A program made the translations under genes and the position numbers. Below, piece by piece: positions 23,252 to 27,199 of a stretch of DNA of 64,000 nucleotides. Below the pieces are notes generated by a model that was not told the origin of the DNA, did not search any database, and saw only the letters and a program-made list of their open reading frames with translations. The DNA comes from Marilutibacter spongiae (GTDB lineage Bacteria > Pseudomonadota > Gammaproteobacteria > Xanthomonadales > Xanthomonadaceae): contig NZ_JACHTF010000010.1 of NCBI RefSeq assembly GCF_014145325.1, positions 1-64,000 on the forward strand, read 5' to 3'. Each line of letters opens with the position of its first letter. The stretch's first letter is position 1.

Positions 23252-23342
23252 AGCGCCCTCCCGCCGCCATCCGGCGCCTCCCTCCCCTTTCCCGTCCACG
23301 CCCCGCCCATCGCGAACCCGGGCCACGAGACAGGAGCCGCAC

Positions 23343-24053
23343 ATGAGTACCGACATGCACGAGCACATCGTCAAGAGCTACGACGACGAGCAGAAACGCC
23401 TCCTCGATGAAACCCTGCGCATGGGCGAGATGGCCGCCTCACAGCTGGAGGCCGCGCTCGACGTGGTCGAACGGCGCGACGACAAGGCCGCCGAGCGGAT
23501 CATCGCCAACGACGAGGCGATCGATGCGCTGGAGCAGGAGGTCAGCCACGACGTGATGAAGCTAGCGCTGCGCGGGCCGATGGCGCGCGACCTGCGCGAG
23601 ATCCTCGCCGCCATCCGCATCGCCTCGGACATCGAGCGCATCGGCGACTACGCCGCCAACGTGGCCAAGCGGTCCACCGCGCTGAACATGATGCCGGCCC
23701 TGCCGCACGTGGCCGGCCTGCACGCGATCGGCACGCTGGCCGTCAAGCAGGTCCGCGACGTGCTCGTGGCCTACCGCGACAGCGACGTGGACGCAGCCAA
23801 GCACATCCGCGTCCGCGACGCCGAGATCGACATCGCCTACACCGGGCTGTTCCGCGAGCTGCTGACCTACATGATGGAGGATCCGCGCAGCATCACCGCC
23901 TGCACGCACCTGCTGTTCATGGCCAAGAACATCGAGCGCATCGGCGACCATGCCACCAACATCGCCGAGAACGTCTGGTTCCTGGTCAAGGGCGAGGACG
24001 AACTGCCGCCGCGCGAGAAGCGCGACGAATCGAGCACGACGACGAGCCCCTGA
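23343..24053 (+). CDS. phoU: Phosphate signalling regulator PhoU
   Basis: 236-aa all-helical cytoplasmic protein with two PhoU repeats. The metal-site motif lies in ASDIERIGDYAANVAK in repeat 1 and AKNIERIGDHATNIAE in repeat 2. In other bacteria it links Pst transport to PhoR and keeps the Pho regulon off when phosphate is plentiful. The start at 23343 has AGGAG about 8 nt upstream. phoB and phoR are not in this window. Confidence 0.97.
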   Translation: MSTDMHEHIVKSYDDEQKRLLDETLRMGEMAASQLEAALDVVERRDDKAAERIIANDEAIDALEQEVSHDVMKLALRGPMARDLREILAAIRIASDIERIGDYAANVAKRSTALNMMPALPHVAGLHAIGTLAVKQVRDVLVAYRDSDVDAAKHIRVRDAEIDIAYTGLFRELLTYMMEDPRSITACTHLLFMAKNIERIGDHATNIAENVWFLVKGEDELPPREKRDESSTTTSP

Positions 24054-24426
24054 GGGGCGCCCGCCCAGGGGCGGGTGGACACCACGCCGGGACCGGGCAC
24101 GACCCGCGCCCGGCAGCCAGCCGGGGCCGCGCATGTCGCGGCCCTCGTCGTCGTGGCGCAGCAACGGCGATGCCGCGGTGCAACACGTCCAGACGGGGCC
24201 GCACGCGGTGAACGGATACTGAACGAAGCCCTGCGCATGCGCCGCGGGAAGCGCAATCATGTCCCCGGGGTGTAACCGCCCGGCGCGGGCCTGCGTAAGC
24301 AGTACTGTGTCGAGCAAGCCTGCCGTCTTCCCCCGACGGTCCCGGTCACGCGACATGCAGCTGTACGACTTCAATCCCAACGGATCGGCGCCACGTGCGT
24401 CCACCACCCAGAGAAGGAATCCCGTC
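24054..24426. other. Intergenic region between phoU and the hvf operon
   Basis: 373 bp. It contains a perfect 8-bp stem-loop (24124-24131 with 24137-24144) that may end phoU transcription, although no T-run follows, and the ECF-like promoter at 24272-24297. No conserved ORF is seen. Confidence 0.5.
24272..24297 (+). promoter_or_regulatory. ECF-sigma-type promoter of the hvf operon
   Basis: GTAACC (24272-24277), a 16-nt spacer, then CGTA (24294-24297). The motif recalled for Caulobacter SigF, an ECF sigma controlling DUF2282/DUF692 operons, is GTAACC-N16-CGAA, so this matches except one base. It lies 130 bp upstream of hvfA. No ECF/anti-sigma pair is adjacent, so the sigma would act in trans. 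Confidence 0.5.
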
Positions 24427-24843
24427 ATGAACAGCAACAAGAAGCCCATCGCCCTCGCCGTCGGCGCCACCCTCCTGGGCGGCCTCGCCCTGTCCTCCTC
24501 CGCTTTCGCGATGAGCGAGCTCGCGGCCGGCTACATGCAGGGCGCCGCCCAGGCCGAGAAGGCCGCCGAGGGCAAGTGCGGCGAAGGCAAGTGCGGCGTC
24601 GAGAAGATGGACGCCGACAAGAACGGTTCGGTGTCGATGGCCGAGTTCGCCGCCGCCCACGATGGCGACGACAGCCGCTTCGCGCGCTACGACGCCAACC
24701 ACGACGGCCAGATCAGCGCCGACGAGTTCAAGGCGGGCCACGAAGGCTCCTGCGGTGCCGACAAGGGCGCCGAAGGTTCCTGCGGCGGCGACAAGGGCGC
24801 CGAGGGCAAGTGCGGCGAAGGCAAGTGCGGCGGCATGGCCTGA
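24427..24843 (+). CDS. hvfA: HvfA/bufferin-like RiPP precursor with EF-hand pair
   Basis: 138-aa secreted Cys-rich peptide. The signal peptide spans ~1-28 (SAFA). Six cysteines (51, 56, 109, 119, 129, 134) each sit in EG[K/S]CG. Between the second and third lie two canonical EF-hand loops, D62-x-D-x-N-x-S...E73 and D89-x-N-x-D-x-Q...E100. In Haemophilus HvfA the Cys of EGKCG is converted by HvfB/HvfC to an oxazolone/thioamide pair that binds copper. The adjacent hvfB and hvfC genes fit that pathway. The EF hands suggest calcium binding as well. A start at 24259 in frame is unlikely because the signal peptide begins at 24427. Confidence 0.85.
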
Positions 24844-24856
24844 TCGAGCCCGTGCG

Positions 24857-25729
24857 ATGACCGCCCTCCGATCCCTGCCGTCCGATGCCGCCGGCCTCGG
24901 CCTGCGGCGTGCCCTGCTCGATCCCCTGTGCGGCGCGGACGCCGGCGCCTTCGATTTCCTCGAATGCGCGCCGGAGAACTGGATCGGAGTCGGCGGTCGA
25001 CTCGGCGAGGCGCTGGACGCACTCAGCGCCCGCCATCCCATCACCTGCCATGGTCTCTCGCTGTCGCTGGGCGGCTGCATGCCGCTCGACGAGACCTTCC
25101 TCAAGCGCACGCGACAGTTCCTGGACCGCCACCGCGTCGCGCTGTACAGCGAGCACCTGAGCTATTGCAGCGACGACGGCCAGCTCTACGACCTGCTGCC
25201 GATCCCGTTCACCGACGAAGCCGTACACCACGTCGCCGCGCGGATCCGCCAGGCCCAGGACATCGTCGGCCGCCGCATCGCCGTCGAGAACGTGTCGTAC
25301 TACGCGGCACCGCATCCGGGCATGGACGAGGCGACTTTCATCAACGCGGTGCTGGCGGAAGCGGACTGCGACCTGCTCCTCGACGTCAACAACGTCTACG
25401 TCAACGCCATCAACCATGGCTACGATGCCGAGGCCTTCCTCGCGGCCATGCCGGGCGAGCGCATTGCCAGCATCCACGTGGCCGGACACTACGACGAAGC
25501 CGAGGACCTGAAGGTCGACACCCACGGGGCCCCCGTCAAAGCCGACGTCTGGCACCTGCTCGATGCCGCCTACCAGCGCTTCGGCCCGCGTCCGACCCTG
25601 CTCGAGCGCGATTTCAATTTCCCGCCGTTCGGCGAACTGCTGGACGAACTGGGCATGGTGCGTGCGTGCATGCAGCGCCACGCCGGACGCGACGCCAGGC
25701 CCGCGCGCGATGACCGCGTCCGCGCCTGA
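24857..25729 (+). CDS. hvfB: HvfB: DUF692/MbnB-family multi-iron RiPP-modifying enzyme
   Basis: 290-aa TIM-barrel enzyme of the MbnB/TglH family (DUF692). Conserved iron-ligand regions are visible: [61 protein letters not shown] and ERDFNFPPF. It should oxidise Cys residues of the HvfA peptide using O2. It begins 13 nt after hvfA and overlaps hvfC by 20 nt. The 195 in-frame bases before the ATG are a shadow of hvfA. Confidence 0.92.
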
Positions 25730-26483
25730 CAGCGGTGCGCCGGCGAAGCTGCGCGACCAACAGTGGTCGCTGGCCCGGCACCTGCGCGACCCCGACGGCG
25801 TGCCTGCTCCGGCGGGCATCGAGCCGCGGCGGCTGCAGGTCTACCGCGAGTTGCTCTTCAACAACATCGAGTCATTGCTGGCCGGGAACTTCCCGGTGAT
25901 CCGGCGCATCTTCGGCGCGCAATGGCCGGTGCTGGTGCGCGCCTTCTTCCGCGAGCACCGCTGCCAGACGCCGCTGTTCCCGGAGATCGCGCGGGAATTC
26001 CTGCGTTACCTGGAAGCGCGTCCCGACCCGGCGCGCCCATGGCTGCAGGAACTGGCGCATTACGAATGGGTCGAACTGGCCCTTCAGATCGCCGAGGCCC
26101 GCGAAGAAGATGCCGGTGCCGATCCAGGCGGCGACCTCCTCGACGGCCGCCCCTGCCTGTCGCCGCTGGCCTGGCCGCTGGCCTACGCCTGGCCGGTGCA
26201 CCGGATCGGCCCGGACTGGCAGCCCGGGCACGCGCCCGACGCACCGACGCTGCTGCTGCTTCGCCGGCGCGCGGACGGCAGTGTGCATTTCTCCGAACTC
26301 AGCCCGCTCGCCTTCCGCCTGGCCGGGCTGCTCGGCGAGGACTCCGGCCACAGCGGTCGGCAATGCCTGGCGCAACTGGCCACCGAAGCCGGGCGGCCCT
26401 TCGACGACGCCTTCCTCGCCCAGGGCCGCACCATGCTCGAACAGATGCGTGACAGCCGGGTGGTCCTGGGCACCGTGGACTGA
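25710..26483 (+). CDS. hvfC: HvfC: DUF2063-type RiPP partner protein
   Basis: 257 aa. It has the N-terminal DUF2063 helical domain ([30 protein letters not shown], read in two parts) that forms a complex with the DUF692 enzyme and presents the peptide, and a C-terminal domain ([11 protein letters not shown]-like strands, FRLAGLLGE). The operon ends here: the DoxX-type membrane protein often following hvfC is absent, and rnt begins 53 nt later. Confidence 0.88.
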
Positions 26484-26536
26484 ACGTCCCACCACCGACG
26501 TAGGGCCCGGCCTCGCGGGTCTGCTAGGCTTTCGGG

Positions 26537-27199
26537 ATGCAGATCCCCCGTGAAATCGCCGCCGCGGTCCGCCCTACCGGCGCCCGGGCCGCCGCCATTT
26601 CCCCGCTCGCGACCCGCTTCCGCGGCTACCTGCCGGTCATCGTCGACGTCGAGACCGGTGGTTTCGACTGGAACCGCCATGCACTGCTTGAGATCGCGGT
26701 CGCACCCATCGACGTCGACGCCGACGGGCAACTGGTCGTCGGCGAAGTGACCGGCAGCCACGTCGAGCCGGCCGAAGGCACCGAGATCGACCCGAAGTCG
26801 CTGGAGGTCACCGGCATCGACATCGGCCACCCGTTCCGCGATGCCCTGCCCGAGCGACCGGCGCTCGAGCGCGTGTTCGCGCCGGTGCGCGCGGCGCTCA
26901 AGAAGCACGGCTGCCAGCGCGCGATCCTGGTCGGCCACAACGCCCACTTCGACCTCAACTTCCTCAATGCCGCGGTCGCCCGCTGCGGGCACAAGCGCAA
27001 TCCCTTCCATCCCTTCAGCGTGTTCGACACGGTGTCGCTGGCGGGCGTGGCCTACGGGCAGACGGTGCTAGCGCGCGCGGTGCAGGCGGCCGGCATGGAA
27101 TGGAACAGCGACGAGGCGCACTCGGCGGTCTACGACACCGAGCGCACCGGGCAGCTGTTCTGCCGCATCGTCAACGCCTGGCCCCGCGCCGGGGCCTGA
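26537..27199 (+). CDS. rnt: Ribonuclease T
   Basis: 220-aa DEDDh 3'-5' exoribonuclease that trims tRNA and other stable RNA 3' ends. Motifs: Exo I VDVETGG, Exo [11 protein letters not shown], and Exo [13 protein letters not shown] with the catalytic His. [14 protein letters not shown] is an RNase T family feature. It is convergent with sugE, 20 nt away. Confidence 0.95.

Follow-up and report, generated by a model that had tools for sequence, protein, structure and literature searches.

Which kind of system is encoded by a short operon of Marilutibacter spongiae whose precursor peptide carries EF hands among EGxCG motifs, and which metals would the peptide handle? The operon lies in a stretch of 64 kb (hereafter the window). 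An earlier note on this DNA had described an hvfABC-type operon whose precursor joins EF hands to EGxCG cores, with six such motifs split 2 + 4 around the EF pair and with hvfB and hvfC downstream and overlapping. These points are all borne out, by motif searches and curated HvfB and HvfC models, by the position of every cysteine and by an overlap of 20 bases. At position 24272, which the note gave as the start, a promoter-like element begins, and the precursor gene starts at 24427.

The precursor gene and its motifs

The hvfA-like precursor ORF (24427-24843, forward strand) encodes 138 aa and is preceded by a putative RBS, AAGGAA at 24414-24419, recognized by eye. Two EGKCG motifs are followed by two canonical EF loops and then by four EGxCG motifs, and all cysteines of the precursor (6 of 6) are located inside the EGxCG motifs, two of which are EGSCG (Table 1). 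When the residues of the precursor were shuffled 20,000 times, more than two EGxCG motifs never appeared, and two EF loops never appeared. The EF-hand_5 model (PF13202) matches two stretches with 39.8 bits (cut-off 25.9), and NF050137 (KCGExKCG_twice) reaches 38.9 bits (cut-off 19.5). However, the HvfA equivalog model NF050188 gives 26.9 bits, far below its cut-off of 95, thus the precursor is not filed as HvfA itself. Two other families were rejected for the precursor, XopAW (a type III effector), which stays far below its cut-off, and lanmodulin, whose curated LanM model gives 17.7 bits against a cut-off of 135; both matches are explained by the EF loops.

Table 1. Features of the operon, in window positions
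Feature	Position	Strand	Details
sigma-F-like promoter element GTAACC-N16-CGTA	24272..24297	+	-35-like 24272-24277, -10-like 24294-24297
Sec-type signal peptide, putative	24427..24510	+	cleavage after SSAFA, residue 28; by eye and alignment
LxxGY element	24520..24534	+	residues 32-36, directly after signal peptide
N-terminal arm, 2 EGKCG	24568..24597	+	Cys 51, 56
EF loop 1	24610..24645	+	residues 62-73
EF loop 2	24691..24726	+	residues 89-100; starts 27 residues after loop 1 start
C-terminal arm, 4 EGxCG	24742..24831	+	Cys 109, 119, 129, 134
hvfB, MNIO (DUF692) enzyme	24857..25729	+	PF05114 343.4 bits; PRK05409 424 bits, cut-off 360
hvfC, DUF2063 partner (PME type 1)	25710..26483	+	PF09836, PF22106; NF050145 293.9 bits, cut-off 142

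Compared with its nearest relative (L003), the precursor gene has 15 synonymous and 3 non-synonymous differences, and dN (0.009) is far smaller than dS (0.182; dN/dS about 0.05), which indicates purifying selection.

In 45 aligned EF precursors, Y36 of the LxxGY element is invariant, while L32 and G35 are conserved in at least 90%. Moreover, in 161 of 168 precursors, with and without EF pair, [LFMI]x(1-3)GY is found ahead of the first motif of the EGxCG type. An element of the LxxGY type is a candidate recognition element, and we do not claim it as the sole one for HvfC; in a shortened FonA peptide, every single-alanine variant ahead of the core was tolerated (PMC12668002).

A structure was predicted by AlphaFold2 from 45 aligned precursors, drawn from the 51 EF precursors that the window and the named set contain (the named set being the 80 best of 278 confirmed relatives of HvfB). 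The mean pLDDT is 54.6; it reaches 81-85 over residues 61-100 and stays below 50 in both arms. In the Foldseek search, all of the 50 matches listed are EF-hand proteins or calmodulin-bearing constructs by title; the best E is 0.021, and none of these 50 has an E of 0.001 or less.

Enzymes and gene neighbourhood

For hvfB, the nearest solved structure by sequence is 3bww (E 3e-72), and the closest relative of the protein comes from Lysobacter aestuarii, now Marilutibacter aestuarii (91% identical). The gene order is phoU (about 23337-24053), precursor, hvfB, hvfC and an RNase T-type exonuclease gene (26537-27199). Generally, the operon occupies one chromosomal address, and phoU and the exonuclease gene both flank 55 of the 80 named loci (36 EF and 19 EF-less; tblastn on the flanks examined). 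This is the one EGKCG-type locus in the genome. An HvfX/DoxX gene is absent from the operon, where the RNase T-type gene comes after hvfC, and the sole DoxX match in the genome is located on contig C31, away from the operon.

A second MNIO gene is present in the genome (L002; G000:C51:148284-149033), which stays below the cut-off of all five NCBIfam MNIO models that it matched. A gene of the cysteine-dioxygenase type (PF05995, 48.6 bits, cut-off 23) lies nearby, and no DUF2063 partner is found among the five ORFs scanned there (3.75 kb).

Comparison with known systems

The fusion of EF hands with EGKCG motifs, which the earlier note took for possibly uncatalogued and distinct, is already on record. 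A survey of MNIO genes in 2025 catalogues EGKCG/EF-hand chimaeras beside them (PMC12452194; example WP_187711723.1), so the combination in the window is not new. For these chimaeras, added roles in calcium homeostasis or signalling were suggested, and EfhP was cited. The window precursor resembles the Buf_EGKCG/EF-hand_5 chimaera in its EGKCG motifs, its two EF-hand_5 domains and its place beside MNIO and DUF2063 genes, its EGKCG membership being judged here with NF050137 instead of the survey's own Buf_EGKCG profile. Its putative signal peptide, clear by eye and in the alignment, would correspond to the N-terminal hydrophobic helix or signal peptide of these exported chimaeras. In the text on the chimaeras the EF pair stands at the C-terminus of a short EGKCG domain, and Figure 3l of the survey may draw the two-armed form. 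The window precursor likewise has a short N-terminal EGKCG domain and then the EF pair, but four further EGxCG motifs come after it.

The chemistry expected by the note, an oxazolone/thioamide pair on the cysteine of EGKCG, is outdated as well. The modification of oxazolin was first described in this way and is now reported as 5-thiooxazole; HvfABC and FonABC install 5-thiooxazoles on EGKCG repeats, and the products bind copper (PMC12668002, PMC13419390). For a two-repeat EGKCG peptide, the reported mass loss is 8 Da, about 4 Da per cysteine (PMC12668002). For one EGKCG product, copper binding gave a complex mixture with precipitation, and its physiological role was left open (PMC12668002). 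Without its signal sequence, HvfA is poorly modified (PMC13419390), which points to a leader-like role of the signal peptide. Oxazolin (HvfABC, Haemophilus influenzae) and fontiphorin (FonABC) share with the window an MNIO with a DUF2063 partner and EGKCG repeats, which are converted into 5-thiooxazoles in those systems. In contrast to the window, EF hands are not mentioned in PMC12668002 (0 occurrences), and the hvf operon includes HvfX (DoxX) (PMC13419390), whereas the window operon is without it.

A further member of this circle is EfhP of Pseudomonas aeruginosa. Its gene, efhP (PA4107), likely forms an operon with PA4106 (DUF692) and PA4105 (DUF2063), and the EF loops of the protein are at residues 88-99 and 115-126 (PMC4053335). 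EfhP contains four EGKCG repeats, for which iron sensing was offered as a hypothesis and dual Ca and Fe sensing was suggested (PMC11559002). The protein, produced in E. coli without signal peptide, binds calcium selectively with a Kd of 13.7 uM; it is molten-globule-like without calcium, and calcium folds it (PMC9132961). Its hydrophobicity also changes with calcium, and EfhP reportedly governs responses to Ca as well as the uptake of iron. By published description, EfhP shares with the window precursor two EF loops 27 residues apart, EGKCG repeats and DUF692 and DUF2063 neighbours, and on this comparison it appears to fit the chimaera description. However, EfhP was studied as a calcium sensor, and the published passages on it are silent on modification by PA4106/PA4105. 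None of the papers cited here states that EfhP is modified by its MNIO neighbour, the nearest being PMC12452194, whose passage on the chimaeras cites EfhP beside them. In the EF-bearing Pseudomonas relatives of EfhP in our sample, all EGxCG motifs are located before the EF pair. For example, L066 (152 aa, four EGxCG, loops at 85-96 and 112-123) has the EfhP-type layout.

Distribution and evolution of the EF pair

HvfB relatives were detected in 229 of 297 genomes of the family (E 1e-40). Besides the named set, a family set of 60 regions was hand-picked among the matches listed, many of them apparently from the same genomes as named loci, and a class and phylum set of 80 regions was hand-picked from NF050137 hits; EF-less precursors outside the family are over-represented, because this last sample was drawn with the repeat model NF050137. 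The 221 stretches examined gave 204 HvfB records, of which 202 were kept (L039 and one motif-less record were dropped), and 168 loci remained after those with at least 97% identity were removed.

A search for EF-hand plus EGKCG precursors beside DUF692 genes had been proposed in the note, and 79 of the 168 loci carry an EF pair. The commonest EF layout has cysteine arms on either side of the EF pair (58 of 79 EF precursors), while 20 precursors contain an N arm only, 1 a C arm only, and 89 are EF-less. Among the best 80 of 278 relatives plus the window (L039 dropped, since it is cut upstream), 39 are two-armed, 11 are N-arm only, 1 is C-arm only and 29 are EF-less. Thus the two-armed layout, in which the note supposed that the EF pair might space two metal-binding clusters, is common in relatives and not peculiar to the window. 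Most two-armed precursors (52 of 58, window included) belong to the window's own family, Lysobacteraceae in the named loci; the others come from another family of the order (2), a further family of the class (1) and records without family label (3). Homologues without conserved EGxCG motifs, which the note would have counted against its reading, did not turn up, because the relatives retain these motifs.

The EF pair itself is regular, with two loops in 78 of 79 EF precursors and the 27-residue spacing in 66 of those 78. In two-armed precursors the last cysteine before the EF pair lies 6 residues from loop 1 (48 of 58), and the distance on the C side is variable; the fixed spacing on the N side may be owed to shared ancestry no less than to function. 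Conservation of the EF ligands was dropped as independent evidence, because the pattern that picks the loops demands those residues and the argument is partly circular. An HMM of the EF region was used instead, and it found no decayed EF pair in 30 EF-less precursors (best E 0.36; L039 among them is cut short).

On the HvfB tree, EF presence requires 5 changes among 81 rows, 3 of them forced by well-supported branches, and 9 changes among 168 rows, at least 7 of them forced. Within the genus of the window, L142 contains extra EGKCG repeats where the EF pair would be, and keeps the same kind of leader, C-terminus, promoter core, cysteine arms and enzyme. From these gains and losses and from the EF-less L142, it follows that the EF pair is an exchangeable module, while the cysteine arms and the enzymes are the constant part.

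Some loci depart from the common layouts. L058 and L061 (Pseudomonas sichuanensis type) are EF-less within an EF-bearing clade, and their gene stops right after the cysteine arm. L070 (2508-2933) is an EF precursor with one EGKCG near the very end and without N arm, a form that is perhaps on the way to losing its metal arms.

At first sight, EF pair and DoxX/HvfX seem to be alternatives. Among the best 80 of 278 relatives plus the window minus L039, DoxX was found on either strand in the flanks examined of 5 of 51 EF loci versus 25 of 29 EF-less loci, with L038 and L070 (EF, short downstream flanks) scored as DoxX-less. In the wider set, with DoxX on the same strand within 3 kb, the numbers are 13 of 75 versus 60 of 87, 6 of the 168 rows being dropped for short flanks. 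The DoxX identity was confirmed for the gene of L015 (PF07681 71.9 bits, HvfX model 146.9 bits), and the others were assigned by a purpose-built HMM. After correction for descent, however, the idea is unsupported: 7 independent pairs are available on the tree, and on average DoxX differs in the expected way in 1.2, in the opposite way in 0.4 and not at all in 5.5. We reject a swap of EF pair for DoxX because the contrast tracks clades and the two occur together in L041, L221, L271 and others. In ten EF loci, DoxX is located on the same strand ahead of the precursor gene, and about 0.6 to 0.9 kb separate its end from hvfB. All EGxCG motifs come before the EF pair in L153, L160, L186, L194, L196, L198, L199 and L200 of these, while L195 and L197 are two-armed.

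A promoter-like element upstream of the precursor

Of the 10 fixed bases in the sigma-F site of Caulobacter (GTAACC-N16-CGAA), 9 recur in the element at 24272, and in that organism sigma-F activates MNIO operons in response to chromate and cadmium (PMC3511200). The likeness of these sigma-F/NrsF bufferin operons to the window operon consists in the MNIO genes and in the resemblance of the promoter-like element to their promoter, with induction by metal stress there (PMC3511200); their precursors, however, are of the DUF2282 type, another precursor family.

GTAACC-N16-CGTA has 1 match in the window (0.02 expected). The full upstream form is TGTAACC-N15-GCGTAAG, and TGTAACC-N15-17-CGTAAG is unique in the genome with 0 matches in the reversed control; the site was already known when both search patterns were drawn up. 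In the genome, looser forms occur no more often than in reversed controls (4 vs 4; 2 vs 4). The core GTAACC-N16-CGT is found upstream of all 6 own-genus loci examined (a seventh own-genus genome, G160, is outside the set). In the whole sample, the sigma-F-like element is located upstream of 11 of 168 precursors (6 of 79 EF and 5 of 89 EF-less), 6 of these 11 being own-genus, against a background of 40 of 3360 shuffles and 31 of 5504 other tiles from these loci. Beyond the genus, where the element is rare, we reject sigma-F control as a shared trait of EF-type operons.

An ECF sigma gene that overlaps an NrsF anti-sigma gene is present (L282; G000:C31:50504-51112), on a contig other than the operon's, and no sigma-F-like site was detected in the 3.6 kb around these genes. 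No sigma-70 promoter was found at 24050-26560.

Proposed mechanism and alternative explanations

The explanation we favour, and consider likely as a whole, is that the operon belongs to the Buf_EGKCG/EF-hand chimaera class in two-armed form, with modification by HvfBC, export by Sec, a core folded by calcium and copper buffering outside the cytosol. Probably the exported peptide grips copper by two modified arms that flank a calcium-binding module. Metal stress would turn the operon on, perhaps through a system of the sigma-F/NrsF type. HvfC would recognise the precursor by its signal peptide and leader, and HvfB would oxidise up to six EGxCG cysteines in the cytosol to copper-binding 5-thiooxazoles, after which Sec would export the peptide. 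Calcium is plentiful in the periplasm, where the EF pair, which would be loose in its absence, would bind it and adopt a compact core flanked by two flexible arms that bind copper. The overall task of the peptide would be to buffer copper outside the cytosol, and its folded state would be set by calcium. The analysis itself establishes the genes, domains, conservation and promoter-like element. We infer the modification chemistry, copper binding, leader role and calcium-driven folding of the window precursor from characterised relatives, and any effect of calcium on copper binding, including the idea of a clamp, is pure conjecture on our part.

Free calcium is low in the cytosol. Periplasmic calcium, in turn, is at least at external levels (PMC9132961). 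If an affinity of about 14 uM is valid here, the EF pair would hold no calcium and be loose while the peptide is modified and exported, and would fill later; with a loose EF pair in the cytosol one enzyme could reach cysteines on either side and Sec could thread the chain. This can be carried further: the EF pair might be a compartment switch, molten in the cytosol and calcium-folded after export, by which the thiooxazole arms are joined as a copper clamp, and EfhP might really be a thiooxazole-modified dual-metal peptide. We regard this stronger version as rather unlikely.

Unlikely, in our judgement, is a peptide that acts chiefly as an EfhP-like calcium sensor of the periplasm, whose EF pair changes shape with calcium and signals onward while the cysteine arms, modified or not, add redox or iron/copper input. 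The calcium-selective binding of EfhP, the change of its fold and hydrophobicity by calcium, its control of Ca responses and iron uptake, and the proposal of dual Ca and Fe sensing from its EGKCG repeats (PMC11559002) are all consistent with a sensor. Yet L142, from the same genus, is without EF pair and keeps cysteine arms, enzyme and promoter core, which argues that the cysteine arms are the constant element, and no downstream partner is known here. The same exchangeability could suggest that the EF pair is a neutral spacer or stability module and that calcium is irrelevant to copper handling. The 9 changes on the 168-locus tree point in this direction, and the C arm comes and goes too (58 two-armed, 20 N-arm only, 1 C-arm only); a neutral module would hardly, however, keep its two loops and their spacing as constantly as described above, nor leave the 30 EF-less precursors without a decayed EF pair, and we think this explanation improbable. 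That the EF pair serves another metal, e.g. a lanthanide or Mn, seems very improbable to us. Lanmodulin (6mi5, E 0.0011) is among the PDB sequence matches that span both loops, but the curated LanM model stays far below its cut-off and EfhP is reported as calcium-selective (PMC9132961). The loops of the window precursor, moreover, are without proline at position 2. A proline at this position of the EF loop is the mark of lanmodulin.

Implications

The operon is placed in an already catalogued class, and the chemistry expected of it is corrected. To this class we add that the two-armed layout is the main EF form in the family, that the EF pair is exchangeable at a fixed locus, that a promoter element resembles a metal-stress site, and that the link with EfhP is explicit. 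In this way the class is tied to a protein with measured calcium binding, and the link leads to the prediction that thiooxazoles are present in EfhP and its two-armed relatives and that these proteins bind both copper and calcium. A further question raised by the two-armed layout is how one enzyme modifies cysteines that flank a foldable domain. If the EF pair does act as a compartment switch, calcium and copper responses would be joined in one molecule.
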